Assembly (NCBI GenBank): GCA_001801625.1
Contig: MGYE01000065.1
Coordinates: 52,334-88,816, forward strand
Direction of reading: 5' to 3'
Origin: Gammaproteobacteria bacterium RIFCSPHIGHO2_12_FULL_42_10
GTDB lineage: Bacteria > Pseudomonadota > Gammaproteobacteria > DSM-16500
DNA length: 36,483 nucleotides
The position numbers and the translations under genes were made by a program. Positions 5,298-25,558 of this stretch are shown here, piece after piece (the first letter of the stretch is position 1; each line of letters begins with the position of its first letter). A model generated the notes under the pieces. The model had not been told where the DNA came from and did not search any database. It saw nothing but the letters and a program-made list of their open reading frames with translations.

Positions 5298-5337
5298 AAA
5301 CAGTCTCCTTAAAATAGCAGTGATATCATTTTCGTTA

Positions 5338-5461
5338 CAGCAATTCCCGCTAACTAGTTGCCTTGGGTGTTATTCCGCACAATGGCTCGTCGGCCGCAGG
5401 CCTCCTGCGCTTGACTTCTTGCTACATAACACCCAAGGCAACTAGTTAGCGGGAATTGCTG
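5338..5461. mobile_element. palindromic MITE-like element, copy A
   Basis: ~36-bp terminal inverted repeats CAGCAATTCCCGCTAACTAGTTGCCTTGGGTGTTAT / ATAACACCCAAGGCAACTAGTTAGCGGGAATTGCTG; flanked by 9-bp direct repeat TTTTCGTTA (5329-5337 and 5462-5470); near-identical copy at 23147-23269 in opposite orientation. Confidence 0.9.
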
Positions 5462-5469
5462 TTTTCGTT

Positions 5470-11417: not shown

Positions 11418-11581
11418 ATCTCCTTTGTTATTTGTTATATAAAGCCATCACACAAACTTCAGTATTCATTATGTTACCTTTTGCACGGCATTGGCAAGCG
11501 TGTTTTGTTTAAATCGTTTCTTTTTTGACTATGCTGTATGATTGTCTTAATTAGTACAAATATGGTACTGTATCGCTCGTG

Positions 11582-11764
11582 CTAGCCCGGATATTTCATC
11601 ATATAGCGTAACGAGGGCGTGAAAATGGCTTGTCTGCAAGGCGCAAGAAGAAAAATGGCTGGGAGCATATTGTATATATGCGACCAGTCATTTTTCTTCT
11701 TGCAACGCAGCAGACAAGCCATTTTCACGTCCGCAGGTGCTATATGATGAAATATCCGGGCTAG
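11582..11764. mobile_element. 183-bp near-perfect palindrome, MITE-like
   Basis: 26-bp outer arms CTAGCCCGGATATTTCATCATATAGC (11582-11607)/GCTATATGATGAAATATCCGGGCTAG (11739-11764) plus inner arms CGTGAAAATGGCTTGTCTGC/GCAGACAAGCCATTTTCACG and GCAAGAAGAAAAATGGCTGG/CCAGTCATTTTTCTTCTTGC. Confidence 0.8.
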
Positions 11765-11772
11765 ACCATGGG

Positions 11773-12186
11773 ATGAATCGCATGATTCGTATTAGTAAAA
11801 TGACTGATTATGCCATCTTGGTGATGGGGGCGCTTGCAAAGCGCCCTGAGGCTATTTTAAGCGCTGCATCGCTCGCTTCTACCTTGCGCCTTAGCGTGCC
11901 TACGGTGAGTAAAATTTTAAAAACACTCTTATTGGCTGATTTGGTTAAGGCAATGCGCGGCTCAGAAGGCGGGTATTGTTTATCGCAACCCGCAGCTTCT
12001 ATTACGATTGCTCGTGTTGTTGCTGCAATGGAAGGTGATCTTGCGGTGACAGAATGCTGTGAAAGCAGCAGATTATGCACGATCGATTCCTTTTGTGCCC
12101 TGAAAGAAAATTGGAAAAAAATTAATAAAATGCTGAATGTTGTTCTATCAAAATGGACCATTCAGGATATGTTGAAGCCATTGTAG
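11773..12186 (+). CDS. Rrf2 family SUF-system Fe-S regulator
   Basis: MIRISKMTDYAILVMGALA, SAASLASTLRLSVPTVSKILKTL wHTH, CCESSRLCTIDSFC cysteines; start at 11773 or 11782, ORF upstream of it lies in the palindrome. Confidence 0.9.
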   Translation: MNRMIRISKMTDYAILVMGALAKRPEAILSAASLASTLRLSVPTVSKILKTLLLADLVKAMRGSEGGYCLSQPAASITIARVVAAMEGDLAVTECCESSRLCTIDSFCALKENWKKINKMLNVVLSKWTIQDMLKPL

Positions 12187-12195
12187 AGCAGACTG

Positions 12196-13635
12196 ATGAC
12201 GAATGAATTTGTACAAGCAGTGATCGATAAAAACTATCCTTATGGTTTTGTTACGTCTATTGAGTCAGATACTCTCCCGCCCGGCTTAAACGAATCCGTG
12301 ATTCGTCAGATTTCTGCCAAAAAAAATGAACCCGCTTTTATGTTAGCGTGGCGTCTTAAAGCCTTTGAATATTGGCAGACGTTGACGCCTCCTAAGTGGG
12401 CGCATTTAAAAATTCCTGCGATTGATTATCAAAGTATGAGTTATTATGCTGCTCCGAAATCAAAGAAAACCGTCAATAGTATCGAGGAGGTTGATCCTGC
12501 GCTACTAGAAACTTACAAAAAGCTTGGCATTCCTTTGCACGAGCAGGGTCGATTGGCAGGCGTTGCGGTGGATGCTGTTTTTGATAGTGTTTCTGTCGCA
12601 ACCACCTTTAAAGAAAAATTAAGAGAAGCCGGCGTTATTTTTTGCTCATTTTCTGAAGCGGCAGTTTTGCATTCAGAACTGGTTGAAAAATACTTAGGCA
12701 CGGTTGTGTCTTACCAAGATAATTTTTTTGCTGCCTTAAATGCCGCTGTATTTAGTGATGGTTCGTTTGTGTATGTGCCAAGTGGCGTGCGTTGTCCGAT
12801 GGAATTATCGACCTACTTTCGCATTAATGAGGCAAAGAGTGGCCAGTTTGAGCGTACTTTAATTGTAGCAGAAGCGGGTAGCCATGTTAGCTATTTAGAA
12901 GGGTGCACCGCACCAATGCGGGATGAGAATCAATTGCATGCTGCGGTGGTTGAGTTGATTGCGCTTGATCGTGCTGAAATTAAATATTCTACTGTACAAA
13001 ACTGGTATCCGGGCGATCAAGATGGGCGAGGCGGCATCTTTAATTTTGTAACAAAGCGCGGCGCTTGTCGCGGCGCACATTCTAAAATTTCTTGGACGCA
13101 AATTGAAACGGGATCTGCTATTACTTGGAAATATCCTAGTGTGATTTTGCAAGGCGATCATTCAACTGGGGCATTTTATTCGGTTGCACTAACCAATCAT
13201 CATCAGCAGGCAGATACAGGCACGAAGATGGTTCATATTGGGAAGCATACGCGTAGCACCATTATCTCTAAAGGCATTTCAGCGGGTCGTGGAAAGAACA
13301 CGTATCGAGGGTTAGTGCGTGTCGCGCCACGTGCGAGCGGTGCGCGTAATTACACACAATGTGATTCCTTATTGCTGAGCGATACAAGCAGCGCCAATAC
13401 TTTTCCCTATATTGAAGTTAAAAATAAAGACACTCTGGTGGAACACGAAGCTTCTACCTCAAAGATTAGCGAAGATCAGTTATTTTACTGCAGACAGCGC
13501 GGATTGAATGTTGAAGATTCGATTTCAATGATTGTGAATGGTTTTTGCAAGCAAATTTTTAAAGAATTACCAATGGAGTTTGCTGTAGAGGCGCAAAAAT
13601 TACTTGAGGTGAGCTTGGAAGGGAGTGTGGGGTAG
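12196..13635 (+). CDS. sufB: Fe-S cluster assembly protein SufB
   Basis: [75 protein letters not shown]. Confidence 0.98.
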
Positions 13636-13654
13636 CGCTGTGTGGCAATATGCC

Positions 13655-13741
13655 GCTATGACTTGGGGATGCGAATTTGTTTGCGTCATGCCACTGGCAT
13701 GACATGCTTATGAAATCGCATTTTGAAGCATAATGGGTATA
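13655..13741. repeat. degraded relative of the 25306-25484 palindromic element
   Basis: TCGCATTTTGAAGCATAATGGGTATA (ending 13741) matches TCGCATCTTGGAGCGTAATGGGTATA (ending 25485) at 23/26; opposing GATGCGAATTT arm on the left; central GTCATGCCACTGGCATGAC palindrome 13685-13703. Confidence 0.55.
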
Positions 13742-13756
13742 CGACAAGAGGTGTAT

Positions 13757-14515
13757 ATGTTAGCGATTAAAAATTTAGAAGTGAGTATCAAAGACCAGCA
13801 GAAGCAGATTAAACCCATTTTACAGGGCGTTGATCTCACCCTTTCAAAAGGCAAGGTGGCTGCCATCATGGGCCCCAATGGGTCAGGAAAAAGTACCTTG
13901 GCAAATGTGCTTGTTGGTCGTGATGGTTATCGTATAACAAATGGTTCCGTGTTATTGCATAATGAAGATCTGTTGTCGGTTTTGCCGGAAGAGCGTGCCG
14001 CAATAGGGTTGTTTCTCGCGTTTCAATATCCTGTAGAAATTCCAGGCGTGAATAATATGTATTTTATTCGCACGGCATTGAATAGCCTGAGAAAAAAACA
14101 AGGACAGTCGCCGCTTGATGCGGGTGATTTTTTGATGTTCCTCAAACAGAAGCTGCATCAGTTTGGTTTTGATGAATCGCTTTTAAAACGAGCTGTCAAT
14201 GAAGGTTTCTCAGGCGGTGAGAAAAAACGTAATGAAATATTGCAGATGCTGATATTGGAGCCTAGTTTTATTATTTTAGATGAAATTGATTCTGGTCTTG
14301 ATATTGATGCGCTTCAAATGATTTCAAAAGCAGTGAATAGTTTGCGCGATGCTAACCGCAGTATTTTAATGATCACACATTACCAACGTTTATTGGATTA
14401 TATTGAGCCTGATGTGGTGCATGTGATGGCGAATGGAAAAATAATCGAGACAGGCGATAAGATGCTTGCACATCGGTTAGAGAAAGAAGGATATGGTTGG
14501 CTGCAAGATGCATAA
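13757..14515 (+). CDS. sufC: Fe-S assembly ATPase SufC
   Basis: GPNGSGKSTLANVLVG, FSGGEKKRNEILQM signature, LDEIDSGLDIDAL; start MLAIKNLEV at 13757 after AAGAGG. Confidence 0.98.
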   Translation: MLAIKNLEVSIKDQQKQIKPILQGVDLTLSKGKVAAIMGPNGSGKSTLANVLVGRDGYRITNGSVLLHNEDLLSVLPEERAAIGLFLAFQYPVEIPGVNNMYFIRTALNSLRKKQGQSPLDAGDFLMFLKQKLHQFGFDESLLKRAVNEGFSGGEKKRNEILQMLILEPSFIILDEIDSGLDIDALQMISKAVNSLRDANRSILMITHYQRLLDYIEPDVVHVMANGKIIETGDKMLAHRLEKEGYGWLQDA

Positions 14516-15746
14516 CTCACTTACTCAAAATCGCTGGGAAGCTTTTCTTGCACATGGATTGCCTAATCGATCAAATGAGCGGTTTAAATATCATGATTTC
14601 TCGTTTCTTTTGAAAAGTGCATTGGCGAATGCAACACGTTTAGATGAGACAGCGGCATTGCGTGAATGTGTGGATGCACATCGATTACGGGAGAAACCCA
14701 GTATTTTGTTGGTGTTGGTGAATGGTTATTTTGTTCCGGCTTTATCGGATTTAGAACGCATACCTGATGATGCGATCGTAACCTGTATTCATGAAGCGCG
14801 GACTTTATATCCTGATTGGGTAGAACAATATGGATCGCTTCCGATTGATCAAACAAAATATCCTTTTGCCGAGTTAAATGCACAGTCTTACAGTGATGGT
14901 TTGTTTATTTATTTAAAAGCAGGATGCAACTTAACAGATCCAATACATTTGTTATCGATCGGCATGAATACAGAAGCTTTTATTGCTCAACCACACCATA
15001 TCATTGTACTTGATATAGCGAGTCGGCTGACGTTAATTGAAGAGTACGTCTCGCTGCATGATGCTGTCAGTTGCCTGACTAATGTCCTGATGAATGTTGT
15101 ATTAAAAGAAAAAACTTTCTTTAATCATTGTAAAATTCAAAATGAACAGTCATCCGCTTTGCATTGTTCAAATACTTTTATTAAACAGAAAAAAGATAGC
15201 CAATCCGTCTTGACGCATTTCTCTAAAGGCGGGGTGTTTTCTCGAGAAGACTGGATGGTGCTATTGGAAGAGATGGGGGCATCGTGCATGACGGCGGGAC
15301 TGTATCACGCAAAGCGCAATCATCAGTCCGTTGCACATTATGTGGATATCAAGCATGCAGCACCTGCCTGCCGAAGTGACATGTTATACAAAGGTATTGC
15401 AGATAAAAAATCTCGCGCTATTTTTGATGGTCGATTATCAGTCGATGAATGTGCCTCTAAAACAGTCGCCACACAAACCAACCGGCATTTGCTTTTATCA
15501 AAAGATGCAGAAGCTTATTCAAAACCATCGCTTGAAATTAATGCACAAGATGTTTCATGTAAACATGGCGCAACAACGGGGCATCTTGATTCAGAAGTCT
15601 TATTGTATTTGCGTTCGCGTGGTATTTCTTATCAAGAAGCGATCGAAATATTTTTGAGTGGTTTTTCTGAAGAAGTGATTCAGCGCGTCATGGATCCTGC
15701 TGTGCGGGCACATGTAAGAGAGGCAATGAGCGTTGTGAGCGAATAA
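14508..15746 (+). CDS. sufD: Fe-S cluster assembly protein SufD
   Basis: Position after sufC, DGRLSVDECASKTVATQTNRHLLLSKDAEAYSKPSLEINAQDVSCKHGATTGHLDSEVLLYLRSRGI; overlaps sufC end. Confidence 0.96.
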   Translation: MHNSLTQNRWEAFLAHGLPNRSNERFKYHDFSFLLKSALANATRLDETAALRECVDAHRLREKPSILLVLVNGYFVPALSDLERIPDDAIVTCIHEARTLYPDWVEQYGSLPIDQTKYPFAELNAQSYSDGLFIYLKAGCNLTDPIHLLSIGMNTEAFIAQPHHIIVLDIASRLTLIEEYVSLHDAVSCLTNVLMNVVLKEKTFFNHCKIQNEQSSALHCSNTFIKQKKDSQSVLTHFSKGGVFSREDWMVLLEEMGASCMTAGLYHAKRNHQSVAHYVDIKHAAPACRSDMLYKGIADKKSRAIFDGRLSVDECASKTVATQTNRHLLLSKDAEAYSKPSLEINAQDVSCKHGATTGHLDSEVLLYLRSRGISYQEAIEIFLSGFSEEVIQRVMDPAVRAHVREAMSVVSE

Positions 15747-15750
15747 TAAT

Positions 15751-16971
15751 ATGAATCAATATCGAGATGATTTTCCAATATTAAAGTGTATGAATCGAGG
15801 CAAGCCCATGGTCTATCTTGATTCTGCCGCATCAACACAAAAGCCGCGTGCTGTTGTGGATGCAATGTCGCATTTCTATTATAACGATTATGCCAACATT
15901 CATCGCGGTATTTACGAATTAAGTGAGCGTGCCACGCGTATTTTTGAAAGCGCTCGAGAAGATGTAAGGCGATTCATTAACGCAAGACATATAGAAGAAA
16001 TTATATTCGTGCGTGGCACAACAGAAGCGATTAATTTAGTTGCAGAAAGTTATGGGCGTACGCATTTTAAAACAGGCGATGAAGTGATCGTCAGCGCGAT
16101 GGAGCATCACGCAAATATTGTGCCTTGGGTGATGCGCGACTTGCATCTTAAAGTCATCCCGCTTTTGGAGTCAGGCGAATGTGATCAGGCAGCCTATCGA
16201 CAATTGTTTACATCAAAAACAAAATTGGTAGCACTGACGCATGTTTCAAACGTACTGGGTACCATTAATCCTGTGCGCGAGATGATACAAATTGCGCATG
16301 CGCACGGCGTGCCCGTGCTTGTAGATGGCGCACAAGCAGTGCCACATTTTGCTGTCGATGTAGCAGCACTTGATTGCGATTTTTATGCGTTCTCAGGACA
16401 CAAAATGTATGGTCCGACGGGTACTGGCGTGCTATACGGCAAGCGAGCACATTTAGATGCGATGCCGCCTTATCAAGGCGGCGGCGATATGATTGAAACC
16501 GTGTCATTCGATAAAGTCACTTTTGCAAAAACACCCAATAAATTTGAAGCGGGTACGCCTGATATTGCAGGCGTTGTCGGTCTTTCTGCTGCGATTGGGT
16601 ACTTAGAAAAGATCGGCATGTCATCTATTGCAGCGCACGATGCTGTGCTTTTAGCTGATGCTGAAAAAAAATTAAGCACGATTGCTGGTGTGCGTATAAT
16701 AGGATGTGCAACCAAGAAAGTAGGCGTTATTTCATTCGTGATTGAAGGTGTGCATCCACATGATGTTGGAACGGTATTGGACCATGCGGGTGTCATGGTG
16801 CGCGCAGGGCATCATTGTGCAATGCCTTTGATGAAAAGACTGGGTGTGCATGCGACTGTACGTGCTTCATTTGGTATTTATAACGATATAGCCGAAGTAG
16901 ACGCGCTAATAGCAGCTATAGAAACAGCGCAGAAAATGTTTGCTGGCCGCTGTTTACATGAGAGTGCGTAG
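15751..16971 (+). CDS. sufS: cysteine desulfurase SufS
   Basis: VYLDSAASTQKPRAV, ANIHRGIYELSERAT, FSGHKMYGPTGTGVLYGK PLP lysine motif, VRAGHHCAMPLM. Confidence 0.98.
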   Translation: MNQYRDDFPILKCMNRGKPMVYLDSAASTQKPRAVVDAMSHFYYNDYANIHRGIYELSERATRIFESAREDVRRFINARHIEEIIFVRGTTEAINLVAESYGRTHFKTGDEVIVSAMEHHANIVPWVMRDLHLKVIPLLESGECDQAAYRQLFTSKTKLVALTHVSNVLGTINPVREMIQIAHAHGVPVLVDGAQAVPHFAVDVAALDCDFYAFSGHKMYGPTGTGVLYGKRAHLDAMPPYQGGGDMIETVSFDKVTFAKTPNKFEAGTPDIAGVVGLSAAIGYLEKIGMSSIAAHDAVLLADAEKKLSTIAGVRIIGCATKKVGVISFVIEGVHPHDVGTVLDHAGVMVRAGHHCAMPLMKRLGVHATVRASFGIYNDIAEVDALIAAIETAQKMFAGRCLHESA

Positions 16972-16980
16972 GAAAGCATC

Positions 16981-17433
16981 ATGTCATTAGAAGAATTATA
17001 CCAAGATATCATTGTAGACCATGGTAAGTCACCACGAAATAGTGGTGTGCTGTCTGCTGCAACGCATCAGAAGGTCGGTCATAATCCGCTTTGCGGCGAT
17101 AAATTAGTGTTGTATTTGATTGTACAAGATGACGTCATCCAAGATGCACGCTTTGAAGGAGTGGGATGTGCTATCTCTGTCGCGTCCGCTTCTTTGATGA
17201 TAGAAACTATTAAAGGCAAAACAACACAAGCTGTTGCTACCCTGTTTAGTCAGTTTCATTTACTAGTAACAGAAGGCAAAGCGCCCAACCAAGCGCTAGG
17301 TAAGTTGTTGGCGTTCAGCGGTGTTTATCATTTTCCCATTCGTGTTAAATGCGCAACGCTTGCGTGGCATACCTTAAACGTTGCATTAGAAGAAAATAGC
17401 AGAAGAAAACAGCGGAGTGAAGTAAGCGAATGA
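16981..17433 (+). CDS. sufU: SufU-type scaffold/sulfur-transfer protein
   Basis: IVDHGKSPRNSG, NPLCGDKL, FEGVGCAISVASASLM, FPIRVKCATLAWHTL with SufU-type insertion. Confidence 0.92.
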   Translation: MSLEELYQDIIVDHGKSPRNSGVLSAATHQKVGHNPLCGDKLVLYLIVQDDVIQDARFEGVGCAISVASASLMIETIKGKTTQAVATLFSQFHLLVTEGKAPNQALGKLLAFSGVYHFPIRVKCATLAWHTLNVALEENSRRKQRSEVSE

Positions 17434-17780
17434 ATCCTAATATTACGGTGACTGCAGATGCGCTTTCACATATCGAAAAAATCATCACTAAAGCGCTTTG
17501 TTTGGGTTTGCGTTTGTCTGTTAAAAAAACAGGGTGTTCTGGCTATGCCTATTCATTTGAACGTGTAGAAACAGTGAATGAAAAAGATTTTTTGCTCGAG
17601 CTTGCACCGCTTGTCAAAATTTACATTGATAGTGCATGGTTGACTTGGTTTGATGGATTAAAAATCGATTTTGTTGAAGAAATAAAAATGGGTTTAAAAC
17701 AAAAGCGTTTGACGTTTATTAATACGAAAGAAAGTGCAAGATGTGGTTGTGGCGAAAGCTTTCAGATGAATGGAGGCTAG
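17430..17780 (+). CDS. sufA: HesB/IscA/SufA A-type carrier
   Basis: LRLSVKKTGCSGYAYSF and CGCGESF motifs. Confidence 0.9.
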   Translation: MNPNITVTADALSHIEKIITKALCLGLRLSVKKTGCSGYAYSFERVETVNEKDFLLELAPLVKIYIDSAWLTWFDGLKIDFVEEIKMGLKQKRLTFINTKESARCGCGESFQMNGG

Positions 17781-17781
17781 C

Positions 17782-18318
17782 ATGTTAGGCAAACAAGCAT
17801 TAGATGTAAAACGTGAGATAGAGGTCACCCTCATTCCATCGGGTGCTAAAGTCATGCTACAAGAAGGCACGCAAGTGTTTGTGACGCAGGCGTTAGGCAA
17901 TGCTTACACTGTGTATGTGAATGGCAATTTAGTACGTGTTGCAGGCAAAGATGGTGATGCATTAGGACTCGTCATTTTGGCAGAAGCAGATGTGAATGCC
18001 TGTGCTGGTACAGTAGAAGAGAAAATTTGGAAGCAGCTCAAGACTTGTTTTGATCCTGAAATTCCAGTCAATATTGTTGATCTTGGTTTGGTGTATCATG
18101 TTGTTGTGCAAGAAGAGCCCGATGCTTGTCGTGCTGAAATCGTGATGACGCTCACTGCGGCAGGCTGCGGTATGGGGCCTGTGCTTGTTGGTGAGATAGA
18201 AGAAAAAGTACGCACGATCGCAGGTGTGACAGAAGTAAAAGTAGAGCTAACTTTTGATCCGCCCTGGGATCGAGAAAGGATCAGTGATGAAGCAAAACTA
18301 CAATTAGGGTTGATGTAG
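17782..18318 (+). CDS. sufT: SufT-like DUF59/MIP18 Fe-S assembly protein
   Basis: CFDPEIPVNIVDLGLVYHV, MTLTAAGCGMGPVLVGEIEEKVRTIAGVTEVKVELTFDPPWDRERIS; start at 17782 after GGAGG. Confidence 0.92.
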   Translation: MLGKQALDVKREIEVTLIPSGAKVMLQEGTQVFVTQALGNAYTVYVNGNLVRVAGKDGDALGLVILAEADVNACAGTVEEKIWKQLKTCFDPEIPVNIVDLGLVYHVVVQEEPDACRAEIVMTLTAAGCGMGPVLVGEIEEKVRTIAGVTEVKVELTFDPPWDRERISDEAKLQLGLM

Positions 18319-20687: not shown

Positions 20688-23781
<3,094 letters not shown>

Positions 23782-25254: not shown

Positions 25255-25305
25255 GGCGTTTTAAAAACCTTATTTAATTCATGCGAATCATGATGATAAT
25301 AACAA

Positions 25306-25484
25306 ATACCCATTACGCTCCAAGATGCGAACTTTATCATCCCATCTTGCGGTGAACTTGGGAAGTTTTTTACAAGAAAAATCCTCACAATACAACGAGT
25401 ATTGTTGCGGTTTTTCTTGTAAAAAACTTCCCAATTTCTTGCAATCTGGGCGTTAAAGTTCGCATCTTGGAGCGTAATGGGTAT
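25306..25484. mobile_element. 179-bp palindromic MITE-like element upstream of apaH
   Basis: 31-bp perfect outer arms ATACCCATTACGCTCCAAGATGCGAACTTTA (25306-25336) / reverse complement (25454-25484); inner 24-bp perfect arms TTGGGAAGTTTTTTACAAGAAAAA (25358-25381) / reverse complement (25411-25434). Confidence 0.85.
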
Positions 25485-25558
25485 ATGCTGTGCGCTGTCA
25501 CCTTAAAGAGCATTTCTTTGATTTAGATGTATGAGAAATGATTGGACCTTCTCTCCCC

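Follow-up and report, generated by a model that had tools for sequence, protein, structure and literature searches.

The suf locus and its leader

The window, that is, the whole stretch of 36,483 nucleotides analysed here from the draft genome of Gammaproteobacteria bacterium RIFCSPHIGHO2_12_FULL_42_10, contains a suf operon headed by the gene of an Rrf2-family regulator, with a long palindrome directly upstream of this gene. The features discussed below are the following:

11542..11547, plus strand: putative -35 element (TTGTCT) of the conserved suf promoter; TTG is in register in nearly all of the 24 aligned genomes (consensus >=90%)
11553..11569, plus strand: AGTAC-N7-GTACT, presumably the operator to which the Rrf2-family SUF regulator itself binds; AGTACaaatatGGTACTGTAT is kept in 24 genomes of the family
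11566..11571, plus strand: putative -10 element TACTGT (extended, TGG-TACTGT), overlapping the operator and kept in relatives
11582..11585, no strand: left copy of the CTAG target duplication (YTAR flanks match in 13/18 own copies and 25/32 overall)
11586..11760, no strand: predicted non-autonomous IS1380-type MITE of 175 bp; 12 full-length copies in the genome, the suf copy equal to their consensus
11586..11598, plus strand: left terminal inverted repeat, CCCGGATATTTCA; the identical 13 bp terminate both ends of complete IS1380 elements
11748..11760, minus strand: right terminal inverted repeat, the reverse complement of CCCGGATATTTCA
11761..11764, no strand: right copy of the CTAG target duplication (same flank statistics, plus the sequence itself)
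11782..12186, plus strand: Rrf2-family SUF system regulator (TIGR02944; hmmscan 145.4 bits, cut-off 110.65; Pfam Rrf2)
12196..18318, plus strand: suf operon with sufB, sufC, sufD, sufS, a sufU-type scaffold gene, a sufA-like gene and sufT (NCBIfam matches)

Alignment of 24 upstream regions from the family revealed one conserved block, TTG-(N)-AGTACaaatatGGTACTGTAT, which in the relatives precedes the ATG by some tens of bases; in 23 relatives the Rrf2 gene (TIGR02944) lies just downstream of this promoter/operator (TTG...AGTACAAATATGGTACTGTAT). When searched for with at most one mismatch, the block matched at most once per genome and nearly always beside a SUF regulator gene. It is intact in the window, at 11542-11573, where it contains a candidate operator site, AGTACAAATATGGTACT, conserved in 24 genomes of the family. 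We infer that TTGTCT and TACTGT, separated by an 18-nt spacer, constitute the promoter, and that the inverted repeat extending over the spacer and the -10 element is the operator of the regulator. A preliminary description of this DNA had already recognised the AGTAC-N7-GTACT repeat, which the relatives indeed conserve, and had placed the promoter at TTGACT-N16-TTAATT, which is not the conserved one. It had also given two start codons for the regulator, 11773 and 11782; the latter (MIRISKMTDYA) is the most likely, its position being conserved in relatives, and the former was abandoned.

Judging from the spacing, transcription is predicted to start at about 11577-11579. The inserted element begins about 10 bp past the conserved promoter, and the right copy of its target ends 17 nt before the ATG at 11782. 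Its placement in the suf leader, between the promoter/operator and the regulator ATG, was described correctly from the outset, and so was its general architecture. The palindrome occupies 183 bp (11582-11764), with CTAG at each extremity and nested arms: a perfectly matching outer arm of 25 nt (11582-11606 / 11740-11764; 0 expected by chance), a first pair of inner arms that is 96% complementary (11615-11637 / 11710-11732), a second pair that is 89% complementary (11643-11670 / 11676-11703) and, at the centre, a 6-bp hairpin with a 5-nt loop. As DNA it folds with a predicted energy of -81.6 kcal/mol versus -25.7 for shuffled sequences (z = -16.8), and none of 200 shuffles was as stable. The element proper comprises only the 175 bp at 11586-11760, is palindromic over its whole length and has neither a transposase gene nor an ORF of note, both CTAGs being flanks outside it.

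The fold predicted for the leader RNA (11578-11812) reaches -145.3 kcal/mol (z = -18.5). A terminator scan detected no intrinsic terminator in or after the palindrome, and no outward promoter on the plus strand was found within the element. Because the conserved suf promoter is intact immediately upstream, transcription of the operon through the hairpin appears more plausible. As modelled, the suf mRNA probably starts with a very stable, near-continuous hairpin of about 180 nt, which may shield the 5' end, provide a site for RNase III, interfere with initiation or have no effect.

Copies of the palindrome within and outside the genome

The genome to which the window belongs is a draft of 1.43 Mb in 85 contigs, and the copy numbers given here derive from search results. 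It holds 12 full-length copies of the palindrome, the one at suf and 11 in other places, which are 94-100% identical. Many shortened copies are also present, with internal deletions down to a 29-bp fused end pair (C22), together with many one-ended remnants. Most copies are intergenic. The copies at suf and on contig C66 equal the consensus of the 12, the remaining ones differing from it at 1-11 positions; since it is identical to the family consensus, the suf copy looks young. On contig locus L030 (2024-2070) a truncated end leads straight into an ORF whose apparent ATG lies inside the element (GTGAAAATGGCT), so that the element may supply its start codon.

Several contigs of this assembly (G000: C23, C59, C50, C37 and C29) end within palindrome copies, and the repeat family itself thus fragments the assembly. 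In a draft of this kind, repeat collapse could conceivably have put the palindrome at suf artefactually. We regard the chance of this as next to negligible, given that the suf copy lies within an 88.8-kb contig, with unique sequence on either side and a proper target duplication, and that two-ended copies elsewhere, with other flanks, behave alike.

Outside this genome, the palindrome had no match in 16 other genomes of the same genus, and two weak end matches both came from one genome of another genus within the family. An exact search with YTARCCCGGATATTTCA returned 52 matches in the own genome, 4 in G029, 1 in G018 and 0 in other same-genus genomes. The plasmid and viral collections searched contained no copies, and a scan of genome contigs yielded two single-ended remnants, in the MAGs Gammaproteobacteria bacterium S010_25 and uncultured Marinicella. 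In several further genomes there are palindromes, about 60-260 bp in length, that share these ends and have mostly matching YTAR flanks; on this sequence evidence, the palindrome is therefore assigned to a wider class of whole-length palindromic passengers.

Two other palindrome families were observed in the window. One is about 125 bp long, palindromic over its whole length, with ends CAGCAATTCCCGC, and lies at 5337-5462 and 23147-23269; the genome has about a dozen near-full copies, at least two of which are flanked by identical 9-bp repeats (TTTTCGTTA; GCAGTAAGT), and because of these 9-bp repeats it is considered a different MITE family. The other, of about 185 bp (25303-25487), occurs in the genome once more in full (C68, 92%) and as two small remnants.

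Comparison of the insertion sites with relatives

The suf regulator gene of 23 relatives is not preceded by the palindrome; their short leaders have diverged and can be aligned only at the promoter, and the relatives are only about 46-63% identical in the regulator protein. A second comparison was afforded by a sister palindrome in G029, located directly after secF, at its stop TTAA. G021 has CTAA at the end of secF, with no insert between secF and the next gene. The left junction aligns between the two genomes and the right side has diverged, so that this comparison, which is not base-perfect, is supportive at the sequence level.

The preliminary description had taken the palindrome for a mobile element, as opposed to a single-copy structure conserved at this locus across relatives. 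What we found is the opposite of the latter: it is multi-copy, and missing at suf in relatives. Its location exactly in the predicted leader and its extremely stable fold are what would be expected of a regulatory RNA structure or attenuator dedicated to suf and kept for regulation, yet 23 relatives, in which the promoter/operator is conserved, lack it in front of the regulator gene, nearly identical sequence occurs at 11 other places in the genome, no match at the Rfam gathering threshold was obtained anywhere in the window and no terminator-like site was found. Such a function is accordingly extremely unlikely, and a conserved or ancestral attenuator was rejected on the absence from the 23 relatives.

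Target duplication

The four bases adjoining the element ends are CTAG, TTAG, CTAA or TTAA, i.e. YTAR. Among the two-ended copies of the own genome, a set unselected by flank, both flanks are identical in 13 of 18, versus 5.7 expected (p ~2e-4); the flanks differ in the other five (5/18), which we read as decay or recombination. When two-ended elements of other genomes are included, flanks match in 25 of 32 versus 10.0 expected, a result reached in 0 of 200,000 shuffles, the set from other genomes being slightly favourable since it consists of pairs with a matching flank or at most two end mismatches. These counts bear out the 4-bp target duplication that had been suggested from the CTAG ends with the caveat that CTAG is itself a palindrome, and the caveat is settled because TTAG and CTAA, which are not palindromes, are duplicated too. 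The YTAR of some copies appears to provide the stop codon of the upstream gene.

Origin of the ends

The combined end and target signature, YTAR-CCCGGATATTTCA, was searched across 369 gammaproteobacterial genomes with the reversed pattern as control; it was found in 31 of them, and the control in 0. One of these genomes, G392, carries a complete IS of 1570 bp with CTAG on both sides and CCCGGATATTTCA at its ends, whose transposase matches PF13701 (538 bits) and NF033539 transpos_IS1380 (403 bits, cut-off 180); in a second copy of 1571 bp one end has one mismatch. In the reciprocal test, eight IS1380 loci were located by protein and ends were then sought nearby, allowing at most two mismatches. 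YTAR-CCYGGATWTTTCA stood beside the gene at 11 of the 16 ends, and 0 times in 91 kb of control DNA. At loci L055 and L056, no convincing match to the ends was found; the former scores below the IS1380 model cut-off.

A protein search also recovered IS1380 transposase fragments in the own genome, on C4 and C68, which share 53% and 64% identity with that of G392. IS1380-like ends, among them TTAA-CCTGCATATTTCACC and CTAA-CCCGGATATTTTACC, occur there on C4 and C43, and one of the transposase fragments adjoins such an end. No intact IS1380 transposase was found in the draft genome; since C4 begins within a transposase gene, an unassembled intact copy is possible. The end pair on C43, 1.4 kb apart, was considered as an autonomous element and rejected, as it contains a Fic-domain gene in an IS1380 remnant and no transposase. 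A truncated MITE end on one side and an IS1380 right end on the other enclose this gene (L037:1282-2678), which was possibly captured between transposon ends.

Because complete IS1380 elements share the YTAR-CCCGGATATTTCA ends and the own genome holds IS1380 transposase fragments, the palindrome is, as judged from its sequence, a non-autonomous IS1380-type MITE. The preliminary description had instead pointed to IS5-type elements, and IS5 targets are compatible with 4-bp YTAR (CTAA-like) duplications; besides, an IS5-like transposase gene apparently adjoins the IS1380 remnant on C4, as read by eye. Derivation from an IS5-type element is nevertheless very unlikely, because the 13-bp ends lead to IS1380 by two independent routes, from ends to transposase and from transposase to ends, because the IS1380 remnants of the own genome bear such ends, and because the targets, YTAR, are broader than CTAG. 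The IS5 derivation was rejected once the ends had been traced to IS1380 elements.

Proposed history of the suf leader

We hold it to be very probable that a transposase-less MITE with IS1380 ends moved in trans into the 5' untranslated region of suf; the operon is then probably transcribed through its hairpin. An IS1380 transposase acting in trans would have moved the element into a YTAR site, here CTAG, duplicating its 4 bp. The insertion would have come to lie downstream of the promoter/operator (11542-11573), which is presumably auto-regulated, and upstream of the regulator's start codon (11782), extending the predicted leader from about 24 nt to about 203 nt; since then, the suf mRNA would begin with the hairpin.

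mRNAs that begin with a 175-nt hairpin commonly show altered decay or initiation, and this general experience speaks against an IS1380-type MITE that is a neutral passenger and leaves suf expression normal. Nonetheless, promoter and operator stay on their proper side of the element, as do the 17 nt preceding the ATG on theirs, most copies of the family are intergenic, and the suf copy equals the family consensus, hence looks young and without signs of adaptation. We give such neutrality a substantial chance, somewhat below even. A bolder proposal, that whole-palindromic IS1380-type MITEs form an undescribed class widespread in gammaproteobacteria and that, in addition, the suf copy has been recruited as an RNA element acting in cis (e.g. 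a 5' stabiliser or RNase III site) resetting Fe-S cluster biogenesis in this lineage, seems to us unlikely.

With these results, a previously anonymous repeat is linked to one particular transposase family, and YTAR-CCCGGATATTTCA provides a general end-and-target signature by which IS1380 elements, together with their palindromic passengers, can be found. The suf case suggests that the leader of an important metabolic operon can be remodelled by a mobile hairpin whose insertion spares both the promoter and the start codon. It also brought to light a candidate operator of the SUF regulator that is conserved and directly testable.

Comparison with known systems

With the IS1380 family (PF13701 / NF033539), as represented by the 1570-bp IS of G392 and several other gammaproteobacterial IS1380 elements, the palindrome has in common the 13-bp terminal repeat and the 4-bp YTAR duplication. 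Unlike these elements, it has no transposase gene, is 175 bp long and palindromic over its whole length, and no resemblance was seen inside the ends. It was thus rejected as an IS1380 element proper, since it encodes no transposase, and is better described as a derivative that makes use of IS1380 ends. Among bacterial families, IS1380 is the one with which piggyBac is usually compared. The piggyBac elements use 4-bp TTAA targets, variants such as TTAG and CTAA having been reported, and IS1380 serves as outgroup in piggyBac trees (PMC10813416). The likeness of the palindrome to the eukaryotic piggyBac elements, in the similar 4-bp target types, is an analogy only, through IS1380.

Bacterial MITEs, such as Correia elements, ERIC/NEMIS-type elements and TIMEs, resemble the palindrome in being small and multicopy with IS-like terminal repeats, and also in the lack of a transposase, the target duplication, the mostly intergenic location and the folding as RNA. 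MITEs have been defined as elements of about 30-300 bp with no transposase gene (PMC4133298). By this definition the palindrome is a MITE: it has the size and no transposase, its copies are dispersed and flanked by target duplications, and its terminal repeats are like those of an autonomous IS. Neither a description of IS1380-derived MITEs nor these ends in print were found in the literature searched, outside which most subscription papers lie, and their absence there is weak evidence for the novelty of IS1380-derived MITEs. MITEs as such are a known kind of element; what is informative here is the location of the suf copy.
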